From contig NZ_JAQGNX010000127.1 in the NCBI RefSeq assembly GCF_028293835.1, forward strand, positions 1 to 64,000: a DNA stretch of 64,000 nucleotides, written 5' to 3'. Shown one piece after another: positions 26,151 through 32,457 of the stretch (the first letter of the stretch is position 1; every line of letters begins with the position of its first letter). Below the pieces are notes generated by a model, which did not search any database, was not told the origin of the DNA, and was given only the letters and a program-made list of their open reading frames with translations. Position numbers and translations under genes: made by a program. This DNA is from Pseudomonas sp. (lineage in GTDB: Bacteria > Pseudomonadota > Gammaproteobacteria > Pseudomonadales > Pseudomonadaceae).

Positions 26151-26203
26151 GCGCCGGGCGGGGCGGGGCTGTCAGCGCTACTCGGGCGTCCGGACGACGC
26201 TTG

Positions 26204-29200
26204 ATGCACTTCAGGACTCTTTCAGGACACGGATCCATCTTGAATAACTATAACGTCTGGTCAGCGCCGCCTTGGCTCGAGCAGGACCGGCTTGCCGCTC
26301 TTGCGCGCCTGGAAATCCTCGATACTTCCCCGGAGCTGGCCTTCGAAGAGCTTGCCAATCTCGCGGCTCAGCTGTGCGATGTGCCCATGGCCCAGATCAA
26401 TCTGATCGACGCTGATCGGCAATGGTCCATGGCGCAATTCGGTCTGTCGGAGCCCGATCAACCCCTTGAATTGTCCCTGTGTGCGCACGCTATTCACCAG
26501 CCTGGTGGAATGGTCATTGACGATTTGCGGACGGATCCGCGGTTTGCCAATCATCCGCAAGTTGCCGGTGGTGCCGGCTTGCGGTTCTACGCGGGTGCGT
26601 TATTGAACTCCGCCGACGGGCCTCTGGGCGCTATCTGCGTACTCGATGTGCGCCCGCGACATCTGTCTGAGCGCCAGGTTGCGGCGTTGGCAACCCTGGC
26701 ACGTCAGGTGGTCAGCCAGCTGGAGCTGCGCCGAGCATTGTCTGCTCAGCGTGAAAGCGAGATTCGACACCTGCAACAACAGGCGCGCCAATCTTTTTTG
26801 CTGCAGCTCAGTGACCGCCTGCACGACGCGGTTCGCGCTGAAGATGTAGTGTTCAACCTTGGCGAGAGTCTGGGGGCGACCCTTGAAATTCAGCGCATTG
26901 GCCATGGTCGCTTCGATTCGAATGGGCTGTTGACCATCGAAAGCGAATGGCTGGCGGGGCCGGCACTCAGCAGTCGAGGCCAGCACCGAATCAATGAATA
27001 CGGCGAAGGTTTGTTCGAACGCTTGAGTCAAGGTGAACTGGTCGCGGTTGAGGACGTCAACCTCGACCCGCGCACCGTTGGCGCTACTCAGCGCTATGCC
27101 CGGTACAACGCGCGCAGCATATTGATTGCTCCTCTTGGTGACGAGGACAGATTCAATGCATTGCTTTATATAAGCTCTGAGCAGCCACGGGTGTGGTCAG
27201 TTGAGGACATCGCTTTGGTACGCGAGGTGGTGGACCGTACTCGGGCCGCGGACGAGCGCGCCAAGGCTCGAAAAACGCTGATGGAGGCGGATCAGCAGAT
27301 CAAACTGGTCAACTCGATGCTGGAAAGCCAGATCGCCGAGCGTGCGCGCGCCGAGCGTTTTCAAGCGGCGCTGTTGATCCTTGGTGATCAACTGCGGGAG
27401 AAGACCGGGTGTGCAGAAATCCGCCAGTCCGCCGGAAGAATTCTCGGCATGACCCTAGGTATCCAGCGTGTTGCGTTCGCTAAAGTCAACGTCGAGCTGG
27501 ACAGCGTTGTTATCAAGCGCGATTGGGTCTTGGGCGCTACCCCCAGCATCGTAGGCACGTACAGCCTCGATAGCTTCGGCGCGTTGTTCGACAAGGTCCG
27601 CCCAGGAGAAGCGGTGGTGGTCAACGACACGCAACTCGATTTGCGCACCGCTTCGGGTCGTTGCGAATGCCAGACCCGGGGAATGCGCACGCTGATCAAT
27701 GTTCCTTTGCTTGAGCGCGGGGTTATTAACACGTTGCTGGCGTTGCACGGCGTTCAGCCGAGGGTCTGGAGTGACGAAGAGCTGAGCTTCGTTCGCGACG
27801 TCGCCGAGCGCTGCTGGGTTGCAATGGAGCGGTCCCGGGCGGAACAGGCCCTGCGGGAAAGCGAACTGCAGTTCCGCACGCTCGCTGACAACATGAGCCA
27901 GTTGGCCTGGACGGCGGAACCCTCGGGCAAGATTTATTGGTACAACAAGCGTTGGTACGACTACACCGGCACGTCGCTGGAAGCGATGCAGGCGCTGGGT
28001 TGGCGCTCGGTTCATCATCCGGCGCATTTCGAGCGGGTAACCGCCCGGATCAAGCATTGTTTTGCCACGGGTTCGGTCTGGGAGGATACGTTTCCGCTGC
28101 GCAGTAAAGACGGCAGTTACAGTTGGTTTTTATCCCGCGCCTTGCCCATTCGCGATGGGTTGGGGCACGTCATCCATTGGTTGGGAACCCATACCGACAT
28201 TACGGCGCAGGTGAACGCCGAAGAGGCGTTACGCGAGCTCAATGACAGCCTTGAGCGTCGTGTTGCGGAACGTACCCGGGAAATGGTCGCGATCAATGAG
28301 TTGCTGCAGGTCGAGATGTCCGAACGCGAGAGTGTTGAAGAGGCCTTGCGTCACGCACAGAAAATGGATGCCATCGGCCAACTCACCGGCGGCATTGCCC
28401 ACGACTTCAATAATATGTTGACGGGTGTTTTGGGGGCGCTGGATTTAATTCAGCGCCGGGTCGCTGCAGGGCGTGTCGCCGAGGTCGACCGTTATATCAA
28501 TGCGGCAATCACGTCGGCCAACCGCGCCGCTTCGTTAACCCATCGATTGCTGGCGTTTGCCCGGCGTCAATCGTTGAACCCGCAAGCTGTGGACGTCAAC
28601 CGAATGGTGATGTCCATGGAAGAATTGCTTCGACGCACCCTCGGTGAACGTATTGAGTTGTGTATCGATCTCCAGCCTCGCTTGTGGCATGCCAACACCG
28701 ATGAGCATCAACTGGAGAGTGCGCTGCTGAACCTTGTAATTAACGCGAGGGACGCCATGCCAGACGGCGGACGCCTTACGGTCAGCACTGCCGTGGTTCA
28801 CATTGAGGCTCAACTGGACGCCATGGTCCCCGGCGAATATGTGCTGCTGAGTGTGGAGGACAATGGTTTCGGGATGTCTGCGGAAGTCATGAGGCGCGCT
28901 TTTGACCCGTTTTTCACCACTAAGCCGATCGGGCAGGGCACCGGGCTTGGGTTGTCCATGGTATATGGCTTCGTCAAGCAAACCGGCGGCCACGTGCAGA
29001 TCGAAAGTGTTGTTCAGCAGGGCACGCGGATTCAGCTGTATTTGCCGTGTCATCTTGAGCAAGGCGAGCGGCATATCACCGAACCGGAAAACCCGAGCAC
29101 TCCGCGTGCGTTGATTGGCGAGCAGGTATTAGTCGTCGAGGATGAAGTGGCTGTGCGTACGCTGGTCATCGATGTGTTGCGCGAACTGGGTTACTCGACC

Positions 29201-29488
29201 CTCGAGGCAGAAAACAGCGAGACCGCGCTGCCGGTCCTGCAAGGTGTGGAGCGCATCGATCTGCTGGTCAGTGATGTGGGGCTGCCGGGGCTTAACGGTC
29301 GTCAATTGGCGGAAATGGCTCGGCAATACCGGCCAAATCTACCGGTGCTATTCATGACCGGCTATGCAGGGAACCCTGAAGTGCGGGCTGAGTTTTTCGA
29401 CCCTGGCATGGACATGTTGATCAAACCGTTTAGCGTCGACGACCTGGCCTTGAAGGTGCGAGAAATGATTGGCGACAAGAAAGTCTGA
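26204..29488 (+). CDS. hybrid sensor histidine kinase/response regulator (GAF-GAF-GAF-PAS-HisKA-HATPase-REC)
   Basis: 'AIGQLTGGIAHDFNNMLTGVLG', 'GQGTGLGLSMVYGFVKQTGGH', C-terminal REC 'VLVVEDEVAVRTLV'; exact start uncertain. Confidence 0.92.
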   Translation: MHFRTLSGHGSILNNYNVWSAPPWLEQDRLAALARLEILDTSPELAFEELANLAAQLCDVPMAQINLIDADRQWSMAQFGLSEPDQPLELSLCAHAIHQPGGMVIDDLRTDPRFANHPQVAGGAGLRFYAGALLNSADGPLGAICVLDVRPRHLSERQVAALATLARQVVSQLELRRALSAQRESEIRHLQQQARQSFLLQLSDRLHDAVRAEDVVFNLGESLGATLEIQRIGHGRFDSNGLLTIESEWLAGPALSSRGQHRINEYGEGLFERLSQGELVAVEDVNLDPRTVGATQRYARYNARSILIAPLGDEDRFNALLYISSEQPRVWSVEDIALVREVVDRTRAADERAKARKTLMEADQQIKLVNSMLESQIAERARAERFQAALLILGDQLREKTGCAEIRQSAGRILGMTLGIQRVAFAKVNVELDSVVIKRDWVLGATPSIVGTYSLDSFGALFDKVRPGEAVVVNDTQLDLRTASGRCECQTRGMRTLINVPLLERGVINTLLALHGVQPRVWSDEELSFVRDVAERCWVAMERSRAEQALRESELQFRTLADNMSQLAWTAEPSGKIYWYNKRWYDYTGTSLEAMQALGWRSVHHPAHFERVTARIKHCFATGSVWEDTFPLRSKDGSYSWFLSRALPIRDGLGHVIHWLGTHTDITAQVNAEEALRELNDSLERRVAERTREMVAINELLQVEMSERESVEEALRHAQKMDAIGQLTGGIAHDFNNMLTGVLGALDLIQRRVAAGRVAEVDRYINAAITSANRAASLTHRLLAFARRQSLNPQAVDVNRMVMSMEELLRRTLGERIELCIDLQPRLWHANTDEHQLESALLNLVINARDAMPDGGRLTVSTAVVHIEAQLDAMVPGEYVLLSVEDNGFGMSAEVMRRAFDPFFTTKPIGQGTGLGLSMVYGFVKQTGGHVQIESVVQQGTRIQLYLPCHLEQGERHITEPENPSTPRALIGEQVLVVEDEVAVRTLVIDVLRELGYSTLEAENSETALPVLQGVERIDLLVSDVGLPGLNGRQLAEMARQYRPNLPVLFMTGYAGNPEVRAEFFDPGMDMLIKPFSVDDLALKVREMIGDKKV

Positions 29489-29647: not shown

Positions 29648-30655
29648 TTATTCGGGAAGCGCTATAAGCTCTGGCGGCTGCGGCGGGGGTTTTAAAGCGG
29701 CCGCGTCCAGGGCCAGTTGGGTCTTGATCAGCTCAAGCTGTACCACCTGATGGGCCTGTTGCTGCTCAGTCAGCGTCTGCTTGAGTGCGCCGTTTTCGTT
29801 TTGTGCGGTACTCAAACGCTCTTGGAGTACGGTGCACTGCGTGTGAGCAAATTGGTATTTCTCGCCTAATTCGGCCGTTACTCGGGTGGAGTTCTTCAGT
29901 TGTTCCTGGTGCGTGCCAAGCTCGCGTAACGTACTGCGCGTTTCGCTCAACAAGCGTTCGTTGTCTCTATTCAGCTGGGTAAGCTCTTCCTGTCGCACGA
30001 TGGCCGCCTGCTGAGCCTGGCGTAATTCCATCTGCACCTGTTGCAGTTGCCCTTCGTGACGGCGCTGCTCCTGTTCCCGTTGCTCCTTGGCTGCGTTGCG
30101 ATAGTGCTCGAGCGCATCACGGGCGTGCAGGTGCTTTTCTTCCAGGGAACGGATCTGTCCATCTTTGTCCTGTAGCCGAATTTCCAGATCGAGATGCGCT
30201 TGCTGGAGGCGGGCGTTAGTCGTTTGTGTGGTTTGCAACGCGTGCCGGGCACTGTCCAGGGTGGCGTTTGTAGCTTCCAGTTCACTGTTGAGCGCCTTGT
30301 TTTGTTGCTGCAGCGCGCCGAAATGCAACTGGGTTCTGGCCAACTCCTCCGACAGGGTTTGCAATTGATCATCGAACACGGCCTGGGCGCGATCAATGCG
30401 CTCTTGCCCTTGGTCCTGTAGTCGCTGAGCAAGACGGCTGACCAACTCGGTCAGCTCATCGTCGATCTGGGCGGGCGGCGCCGCCCGCCGCGACTCCTGA
30501 TCATCCAGCTCTTTCAGATAACGATGAATCGTGGTCTTGGAGCCGGTGTTACCCATCTCAATCCGCACGGCATCGATGCTCGGGTTTTCGCCGCGAGCCA
30601 GTAACGCCATGCGCGCCGTTTGAACCACTGCCTTGTTGACTCCGCCGCGTGCCAT
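29648..30655 (-). CDS. KfrA_N-domain coiled-coil DNA-binding protein (TnpT-like)
   Basis: 'MARGGVNKAVVQTARMALLARGENPSIDAVRIEMGNTGSKTTIHRYLKEL' N-terminal HTH then long coiled coil; divergent from tyrosine recombinase. Confidence 0.85.
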   Translation of the reverse strand: MARGGVNKAVVQTARMALLARGENPSIDAVRIEMGNTGSKTTIHRYLKELDDQESRRAAPPAQIDDELTELVSRLAQRLQDQGQERIDRAQAVFDDQLQTLSEELARTQLHFGALQQQNKALNSELEATNATLDSARHALQTTQTTNARLQQAHLDLEIRLQDKDGQIRSLEEKHLHARDALEHYRNAAKEQREQEQRRHEGQLQQVQMELRQAQQAAIVRQEELTQLNRDNERLLSETRSTLRELGTHQEQLKNSTRVTAELGEKYQFAHTQCTVLQERLSTAQNENGALKQTLTEQQQAHQVVQLELIKTQLALDAAALKPPPQPPELIALPE

Positions 30656-30692
30656 GCCGTACTCCTATGATTTCGTACTGTGGTACGTACAC

Positions 30693-30702
30693 TGTAATTA
30701 CA
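30693..30702. promoter_or_regulatory. palindrome TGTAATTACA, candidate KfrA-like operator
   Basis: perfect 10-bp palindrome in divergent intergenic region. Confidence 0.35.
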
Positions 30703-30748
30703 TACGATTTAATTCGCAATTATCATCCGTGTCTTTTAAAAACACACA

Positions 30749-30771
30749 CGGAATAATAAGGTATTATCCCG
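30749..30771. other. candidate recombination core site
   Basis: CGGAATAATA-AGG-TATTATCCCG, 9/10 matching inverted arms, between recombinase and KfrA-like genes. Confidence 0.4.
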
Positions 30772-30816
30772 CGTCATCGACTAATTCGGCATTTGGACGT
30801 GGTTTTCAGTACAAAT

Positions 30817-31791
30817 ATGAACCCCTCCGGCAGCAACGAACTGGATCGTTACCTCAACGCCGCCACCCGCGACAACACGCGGCGCAGTTATCGGGCAGCC
30901 ATTGAGCACTTCGAAGTGACGTGGGGCGGCTTTCTGCCTGCCACCAGCGACAGCGTGGCGCGCTATCTGGTGGCGTTTGCGGGGGTGCTCTCCATCAATA
31001 CGCTAAAGCTGCGCTTGTCAGCGCTGGCGCAGTGGCATAACAGTCAGGGATTCCCTGACCCCACCAAGGCGCCGATGGTACGCAAGGTGTTCAAGGGCAT
31101 TCGGGCGCTACACCCCGCGCAGGAAAAACAAGCCGAGCCGTTGCAGTTGCGGCAACTGGAGCAGGTGGTCGCAAGGCTTGATCTTGAGGCCGCACAGGCC
31201 GTTGCCGATAGCGATCGTCCGTCACTGCTGCGTTGCCGGCGCGACGCCGCGCTGATTTTGCTGGGATTCTGGCGTGGCTTTCGCAGCGATGAGCTGTGCC
31301 GACTGGACATCGAGCATGTGCGGGCGATGCCAGGCTCGGGGATCAGCCTGTACCTGCCGCGCAGCAAAAGTGATCGCGACAACCTCGGACGTACCTATCA
31401 AACGCCGGCCTTGAAGCGTTTGTGTCCGGTGCAGGCTTACATCGAATGGGTCAACTGTGCGGCGCTGGTGCGTGGGCCGGTATTTCGGGGAATTGATCGT
31501 TGGGGGAATCTGGCAGAGGAGGGCTTGCACGCCAACAGTGTCATTCCGTTGCTGCGCCAGGCTCTGGAACGCGCGGGTATTGCCGCCGAACACTACACCA
31601 GCCACTCATTGCGTCGCGGCTTCGCCACGTGGGCCCATCAGAGCGGCTGGGACTTGAAGTCACTGATGAGCTACGTCGGCTGGAAGGACGTCAAGTCGGC
31701 CCTGCGCTACATCGACGCCAGCCCGTTTGCCGATATCATCGCGCCCTCAGATGTGTCACAGATTTCTTCTATTAATAAGAACCCCTTATAG
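30817..31791 (+). CDS. tyrosine site-specific recombinase (TnpS/Xer-like)
   Basis: 'HYTSHSLRRGFATWAHQSGWDLKSLMSYVGWKDVKSALRYID' (HxxR...Y catalytic box); start set at MNPSGSNELDRYL. Confidence 0.92.
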   Translation: MNPSGSNELDRYLNAATRDNTRRSYRAAIEHFEVTWGGFLPATSDSVARYLVAFAGVLSINTLKLRLSALAQWHNSQGFPDPTKAPMVRKVFKGIRALHPAQEKQAEPLQLRQLEQVVARLDLEAAQAVADSDRPSLLRCRRDAALILLGFWRGFRSDELCRLDIEHVRAMPGSGISLYLPRSKSDRDNLGRTYQTPALKRLCPVQAYIEWVNCAALVRGPVFRGIDRWGNLAEEGLHANSVIPLLRQALERAGIAAEHYTSHSLRRGFATWAHQSGWDLKSLMSYVGWKDVKSALRYIDASPFADIIAPSDVSQISSINKNPL

Positions 31792-31893: not shown

Positions 31894-32457
31894 ATGCCTA
31901 TCATCAACAGCCAAGTCAAACCATTCAAAGCCACTGCGTTCGCTAACAACGAATTTGTTGAAGTGTCGGAAGCAAACCTGAAAGGCAAATGGTCTGTCGT
32001 ATTCTTCTACCCAGCTGACTTCACCTTCGTTTGCCCTACCGAATTGGGCGACCTGGCTGATAACTACGCTGAGTTCAAGAAATTGGGCGTTGAAATCTAC
32101 GGCGTGTCTACCGACACCCATTTCGCTCACAAAGCTTGGCACGACACGTCTGACGTGATCGGCAAAGTTACCTTCCCGTTGATCGGCGACCCGACCCACG
32201 TGATCTCTCGCAACTTTGACGTTCTGATCGAAGAAGCGGGTCTGGCTGACCGTGGCACGTTCGTTATCAACCCGGAAGGTCAGATCAAGATTGTTGAACT
32301 GAACGACGGCGGTGTTGGCCGTGACGCTTCTGAGCTGCTGCGCAAGGTTAAAGCCGCTCAATACGTTGCTGCTCACCCAGGCGAAGTTTGCCCAGCTAAA
32401 TGGAAAGAAGGCGAAGCCACGTTGGCACCGTCTTTGGACCTGGTTGGCAAGATCTAA
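31894..32457 (+). CDS. ahpC: alkyl hydroperoxide reductase subunit C (peroxiredoxin)
   Basis: '[16 protein letters not shown]', '[21 protein letters not shown]'. Confidence 0.96.

Follow-up and report, generated by a model that had tools for sequence, protein, structure and literature searches.

The genes tnpT and tnpS are already known as the copy-separating machinery of Tn4651-type transposons. In the window, by which we mean the whole stretch of 64,000 nucleotides of Pseudomonas sp. DNA analysed here, a gene pair of this type is found fixed in the chromosome without a transposon. This locus raises the question of what such a pair is kept for in a place where no transposon accompanies it.

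The gene pair and its spacer

According to ORF calls and sequence, a tnpT-like and a tnpS-like gene diverge from a 161-bp AT-rich spacer (Table 1). In Pfam searches, the tnpT-like protein matched KfrA_N (PF11740, E 3.3e-23), followed by a long coiled coil, and the tnpS-like protein matched PF00589 (E 4e-13). An earlier note on this DNA had described the pair, its strands and divergence, the short AT-rich spacer and the placement between a histidine kinase gene and ahpC, all of which were recovered from the ORFs and Pfam matches. The hybrid histidine kinase gene adjoins the pair only in L001-L003 among the best 30 loci.

Table 1 Features of the tnpT-tnpS locus and its flanks (window coordinates)
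Feature	Position	Strand	Description and basis
Hybrid histidine kinase/response regulator gene (flank)	26201-29488	plus	ORF
tnpT-like gene	29648-30655	minus	335 aa; KfrA_N DNA-binding domain and coiled coil; ORF
Divergent spacer, putative counterpart of the rst (resolution) region	30656-30816	none	sequence; spacer alignments
Accessory element CTCCTATGATTTCGTACTGTGGTACGTACACTGTAATTACATAC... adjoining tnpT	30662-30710	none	conservation; likely TnpT-binding part
Core inverted repeat CGGAATAATAAGGTATTATCCCG	30749-30771	none	conservation; likely TnpS crossover site
tnpS-like gene	ATG 30817 to stop 31791	plus	324 aa; tyrosine recombinase, Cre/TnpS type
ahpC (syntenic flank outside the module)	31894-32457	plus	ORF, synteny; followed by ahpF

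A comparison with plasmid records matched the recombinase to TnpS of pWW0/Tn4651 and its relatives, with TnpS proteins at 62-68%, and the partner to their TnpT. In pairwise comparison, TnpS of pWW0/Tn4651 shows 68% identity to the window recombinase over 294 aa, and TnpT of the same locus 55% identity to the KfrA_N protein over 247 aa. The pWW0 TnpT also matches KfrA_N in a Pfam search. We take the pWW0 gene pair to be tnpS and tnpT of Tn4651; the PLSDB table labels the two genes merely 'site-specific integrase' and 'DNA-binding protein', and the naming rests on their position in pWW0, the label of a relative and general knowledge. A close relative is labelled 'Tn4652, cointegrate resolution protein T' in the plasmid records. 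With these identities, KfrA_N in both TnpT proteins and the shared divergence, the relationship and layout proposed in the earlier note hold.

The nearest solved structure to a TnpS-type profile of ten proteins is Cre (E about 1e-15). The likely catalytic residues R155, K183, H262, R265, W288 and Y297 (numbering omits the initial Met) are invariant in 114 of 114 relatives of the ahpC-linked clade. XerC/XerD equivalog scores were not reached, with 27.5 bits for TIGR02224 (cut-off 335) and 28.8 bits for TIGR02225 (cut-off 330). Based on TnpS homology and the score cut-offs, an identity as phage integrase or XerC/D was rejected, and the grouping with such enzymes that the earlier note had named as its counter-case did not occur. 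A phage or ICE integrase was likewise rejected, given the fixed ahpC synteny and scores far below the cut-offs of curated integrase models; the window also yielded no tRNA.

Two conserved blocks were observed in an alignment of 91 distinct ahpC-clade spacers, with drifting sequence between and after them. The mean top-base frequency is 0.80 over positions 30670-30710, compared to 0.56 in the AT spacer, and reaches 0.90 in the best conserved part (30746-30776). The accessory element is also kept in the P. putida-type clade and in the spacer of pWW0/Tn4651, where it is accompanied by a related core. In published accounts, rst has these two parts, with the accessory palindrome serving TnpT and the core serving TnpS (PMC4619425, PMC7157771). 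A predicted rst of the module, with core inverted repeat and accessory element, is thus present between the genes.

The core occurs once in the window, with 0 copies expected by chance. The clade consensus core was found exactly once per genome in 11 of 11 matching ahpC-clade genomes; with three mismatches allowed, 12 others, including that of the window, gave no match to this consensus, since their cores deviate from it. A series of TnpT boxes along the window was considered and rejected, as only one palindrome was found. A terminator-like hairpin on the minus strand overlaps the core (30746-30774), and a terminator function of the core was rejected since the T-run falls in the unconserved AT spacer.

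A profile search detected no Tn3 transposase (PF01526, DDE_Tnp_Tn3) in the whole 5.7-Mb assembly, and the same held for 65 of the 79 other genomes searched (66 of 80 when the assembly of the window is counted). The Tn4651-type end GGGGNNATGCCGAGATAAGG was not found in the window, and a search around the pair yielded no long inverted repeats bracketing it. These results bear out the lack of tnpA and Tn3 terminal repeats reported previously, and the pair is not a recent transposon relic. It had also been called a cointegrate-resolution module without a transposase. Its stand-alone state is supported, but cointegrate resolution is unsupported as its present role, because cointegrates would need a transposase to form and a single core was found per chromosome.

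Like the TnpS-TnpT-rst module of Tn4651/Tn4652, the window locus combines a homologous recombinase and helper, encoded by divergent genes, with a spacer holding an accessory element and a core inverted repeat. Unlike that module, it lacks tnpA and terminal repeats, its chromosomal synteny is fixed, its core is clade-specific, and in the TnpS tree it forms a single separate clade. Cre/loxP of phage P1, besides being the structural neighbour, resembles it in having a single recombinase and one palindromic core, but the window recombinase has low sequence identity to Cre, and the KfrA-like helper and accessory element are additional to the Cre/loxP design. In P1, loxP sits opposite the origin (PMC11724359).

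Distribution and descent in Pseudomonas

A recombinase match was found in 240 of 300 Pseudomonas genomes, 224 of which are TnpS-type after 16 weak matches were dropped. By our own count, about 154 of these 224 genomes fall into the close class (about 76% identity or more), and a close TnpS is missing in about a quarter of the 300 sampled members of the genus. Outside the Pseudomonadaceae, it was found in one of about 270 sampled Gammaproteobacteria. Of the 70 group-B TnpS genomes examined, 69 were found to have the tnpT partner. The order tnpT-tnpS-ahpC-ahpF is seen in 30 of the 30 best loci. Among 80 named loci, drawn from species of the P. fluorescens, syringae, fragi and chlororaphis types, 77 show tnpT-tnpS-ahpC; the remaining three end at a contig edge, which leaves 77 of 77 untruncated loci with this order. 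Its recurrence in every untruncated relative examined in the ahpC clade places the arrangement far beyond chance. Synteny had been suggested earlier as a check on the pair: the order with ahpC is kept, and the two genes proved to be co-conserved.

Median dN/dS ratios in the ahpC-linked clade, which are approximate with dS near saturation, are 0.059 for TnpS, 0.062 for AhpC and 0.075 for AhpF, with a looser value of 0.17 for the TnpT N-terminus. TnpS is thus under strong purifying selection and changes no faster than AhpC, and both recombinase and helper are intact. Taken together, the transposase-free TnpS-TnpT-rst module is, as judged from sequence, a fixed chromosomal system in most sampled Pseudomonas species.

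Single genomes show other states. In G299 (L243 8987-10794), an orphan tnpT stands at ahpC, where tnpS and the core are lost; the same genome has a tnpS from a different lineage, accompanied by a complete rst-like site, 29 kb from dif. The ahpC-side tnpS of G109 (L242 9072-9976) is apparently split in two frames, through sequencing error or early decay. A KfrA/TnpT-like gene is found in G105 (L246 9563-10291), a genome without a listed TnpS relative.

The ahpC-linked TnpS proteins form one clade with full support in both FastTree and mixture-model trees, and the pairs of other lineages are located elsewhere than ahpC. According to AU tests on groups defined after the first tree had been seen, the transposon-borne copies are not one clade (p 0.012) and neither are the chromosomal copies (p 0.010). 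The deepest branches differ between the two trees, and the root is uncertain with very distant outgroups. Either of the origins named in the earlier note, domestication from a transposon or a resident ancestor, may fit these trees. It is rather improbable that the chromosomal pair is the ancestral source of the Tn3-family resolution module. In its favour, chromosomal pairs occupy the deepest branches of the mixture-model tree with distant outgroup, and many Pseudomonadaceae but few other Gammaproteobacteria have chromosomal forms. However, a transposon-copy group branches outside the ahpC and Tn4651 clades in FastTree, the branches to the outgroup are very long, and the pair's repeated relocation points to mobility, with neither form being one clade.

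In the P. putida-type clade (L062-L101, L252-L271), tnpS and tnpT mostly occur once each, in divergent orientation, and lie 3 to about 100 kb apart. The genes between them are ordinary and constitute a block largely common to the genomes. An EAL-domain gene often adjoins tnpS in this clade. There, tnpS has its own upstream region, in which no core was found, and a search by tnpS detected no second core. Both conserved blocks persist upstream of tnpT. There, most of the 26 loci aligned show little change in the core AATAATCACGGCTTATCGCATG, and the rest of the upstream sequence varies. This core was found exactly once in 20 of 25 genomes and was absent at three mismatches in 5 of 25. Its persistence beside tnpT after tnpS moved away indicates that the site is kept for itself and not as part of the tnpS promoter, so that a function as tnpS promoter only was rejected.

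The same loci bear on the idea that incoming rst-bearing elements dock at the chromosomal site, or that the gap between tnpT and tnpS is an integration hotspot. The distances in P. putida-type genomes would fit it, and TnXocp1 carries passengers between tnpS and tnpT (PMC4619425). With no second core found on the tnpS side, however, the split does not represent an insertion with a core at either end, and the intervening genes are largely shared, so that a hotspot was rejected for this clade. Core spacers also differ among lineages and from Tn4651, which should hinder cross-recombination, and the whole idea is very unlikely.

In P. putida strains, the locus tags of tnpS and tnpT are several to many genes apart, and PP_3239/PP_3181 and their strain equivalents are listed as tnpT/tnpS genes of Tn4652 (PMC3056050). 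These genes probably represent split chromosomal pairs like those described here. The parts of that account considered here treat them as mobile-element genes only, and site, synteny and terminus link go unmentioned in these parts (PMC3056050). In the literature on the pair at ahpC and on the P. putida locus tags, nothing was found on function.

Position relative to dif and possible role

The dif site was located by consensus in complete genomes, and a canonical dif is present in nearly all of those tested. In the ahpC clade, tnpS lies 62-465 kb from dif (median 161 kb, 53 genomes). The related pairs of other Pseudomonadaceae, in other surroundings, are mostly close to dif as well. For 12 other groups, which represent at least eight different gene neighbourhoods, none of them at ahpC, the group medians are at most 8.3% of half a chromosome from dif, with some chromosome lengths rounded to 0.1 Mb. 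Single cases in other groups range from 240 bp to 10 kb. The distance table holds the main copy per genome; extra copies in the multi-copy genomes G406, G418 and G273 and the only copies of G372, all more than 1 Mb from dif, were left out. The combined distance figure is descriptive, because groups were treated as independent and main copies alone were used. Since dif of the assembly of the window is on another contig, the near-dif placement is taken from relatives. In one genome (G323, L250 3560-4910), dif lies 240 bp downstream of tnpS, which places it about 1.2 kb from the rst-like site.

A single recombination site in the terminus region suggests that the module, as predicted from its parts, now serves the chromosome itself. 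Our tentative explanation, to which we assign a probability of roughly 0.4, is a fixed chromosomal recombination system of the Cre/loxP kind, in which sister chromosomes would be exchanged near the terminus as an auxiliary to XerCD/dif. We infer that TnpT would bind the accessory element and assist TnpS, which would cut at the core and carry out strand exchange between two copies of this site. Given an intact recombinase, the lack of a transposase and the single core found per chromosome, the site would regularly meet no partner other than its sister copy after replication. The reaction would then interconvert chromosome monomers and dimers near the terminus, in the working zone of septum-linked FtsK. 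Its putative contribution would be to undo or tolerate dimers beside XerCD/dif, and not to act as a cointegrate resolvase.

Published systems make such a role conceivable. FtsK activity in E. coli covers a zone of about 400 kb around dif (PMC3140498), and Cre/loxP can substitute for dif in an FtsK-dependent manner (PMC11724359). In xerS-difSL and xerH-difH, a single recombinase gene is linked to a terminus site (PMC2731167). The window locus resembles these in having one recombinase gene beside a site in the terminus region, but differs in the coexistence of a canonical dif, the greater distance from the terminus and the helper gene. The strongest objection is that relocated E. coli dif sites resolve dimers poorly (PMC3140498), and the ahpC-clade loci are over 60 kb from dif. 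The terminus-site test gave a mixed result, with a single core and near-dif placement in relatives, yet a distance of 62-465 kb in the ahpC clade. Furthermore, the presence of dif in nearly all complete genomes tested would make the system redundant with XerCD.

The near-dif position may instead be inherited from transposon insertion bias. According to this alternative, which we regard as somewhat unlikely, Tn4651-type elements insert preferentially near dif and the pair was left after loss of the transposase, to be kept for another reason or to decay slowly. Tn4651-type ends lie about 25 bp (L237 15573-15665) and 100 bp (L238 11043-11191) from dif, and two further cases (L236 and L239) at 3.5 and 9.7 kb. 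All four chromosomal transposases with a Tn4651-type end are within 13 kb of dif, and most other Tn3 transposases are 0.45-3 Mb away. A preference for the terminus is also described for Tn917 and Tn1 of the Tn3 family, and that of Tn917 is weaker when RipX or SpoIIIE is missing (PMC8116780). No TnpS or TnpT was seen within the 20-kb stretches of L238 and L239, which indicates that the bias may belong to the transposase and not to the resolution module. Insertion bias is unable to explain prolonged retention without a transposase, dN/dS values of about 0.06, invariant catalytic residues and a conserved single core; it can account for arrival, not for retention.

Retention could also be due to DNA binding. 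KfrA proteins are DNA-binding plasmid proteins, and TnpT is KfrA-like according to Pfam. TnpT and TnpS might mainly be autoregulators or terminus organisers, with recombination being incidental, and Tn3-family resolution sites are known to hold promoters as well (PMC7157771). This is unlikely. The tyrosine nucleophile and the rest of the catalytic set do not vary among the 114 relatives, the core is still an inverted repeat of the form expected for a crossover site, and neither the core nor the accessory palindrome was found a second time in the window.

Implications

Compared to the earlier note, the analysis adds the breadth of synteny, the conserved rst-like site and the link to the dif region. 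If the sister-chromosome reading is extended to the genus, most Pseudomonas species would possess a second, Cre-like system with one rst site near dif, which would exchange sister chromosomes or resolve dimers and whose parts would have been exchanged with Tn3-family transposons; we hold this with more doubt than confidence. A transposon resolution module conserved as part of the chromosome would change the reading of many annotations as 'site-specific integrase' or 'DNA-binding protein' in a large and much-studied genus.

Tn4651-type ends near dif (L236-L239) point to an insertion preference for the dif region. With ends that almost touch dif, the reason for the accumulation of these elements at the terminus and the way in which transposons and chromosomes hand on resolution systems become testable. 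G323 offers a natural arrangement for comparing the rst-like site and dif systems. If the module acts on sister chromosomes, it would constitute an extra layer of terminus processing beside XerCD/dif.
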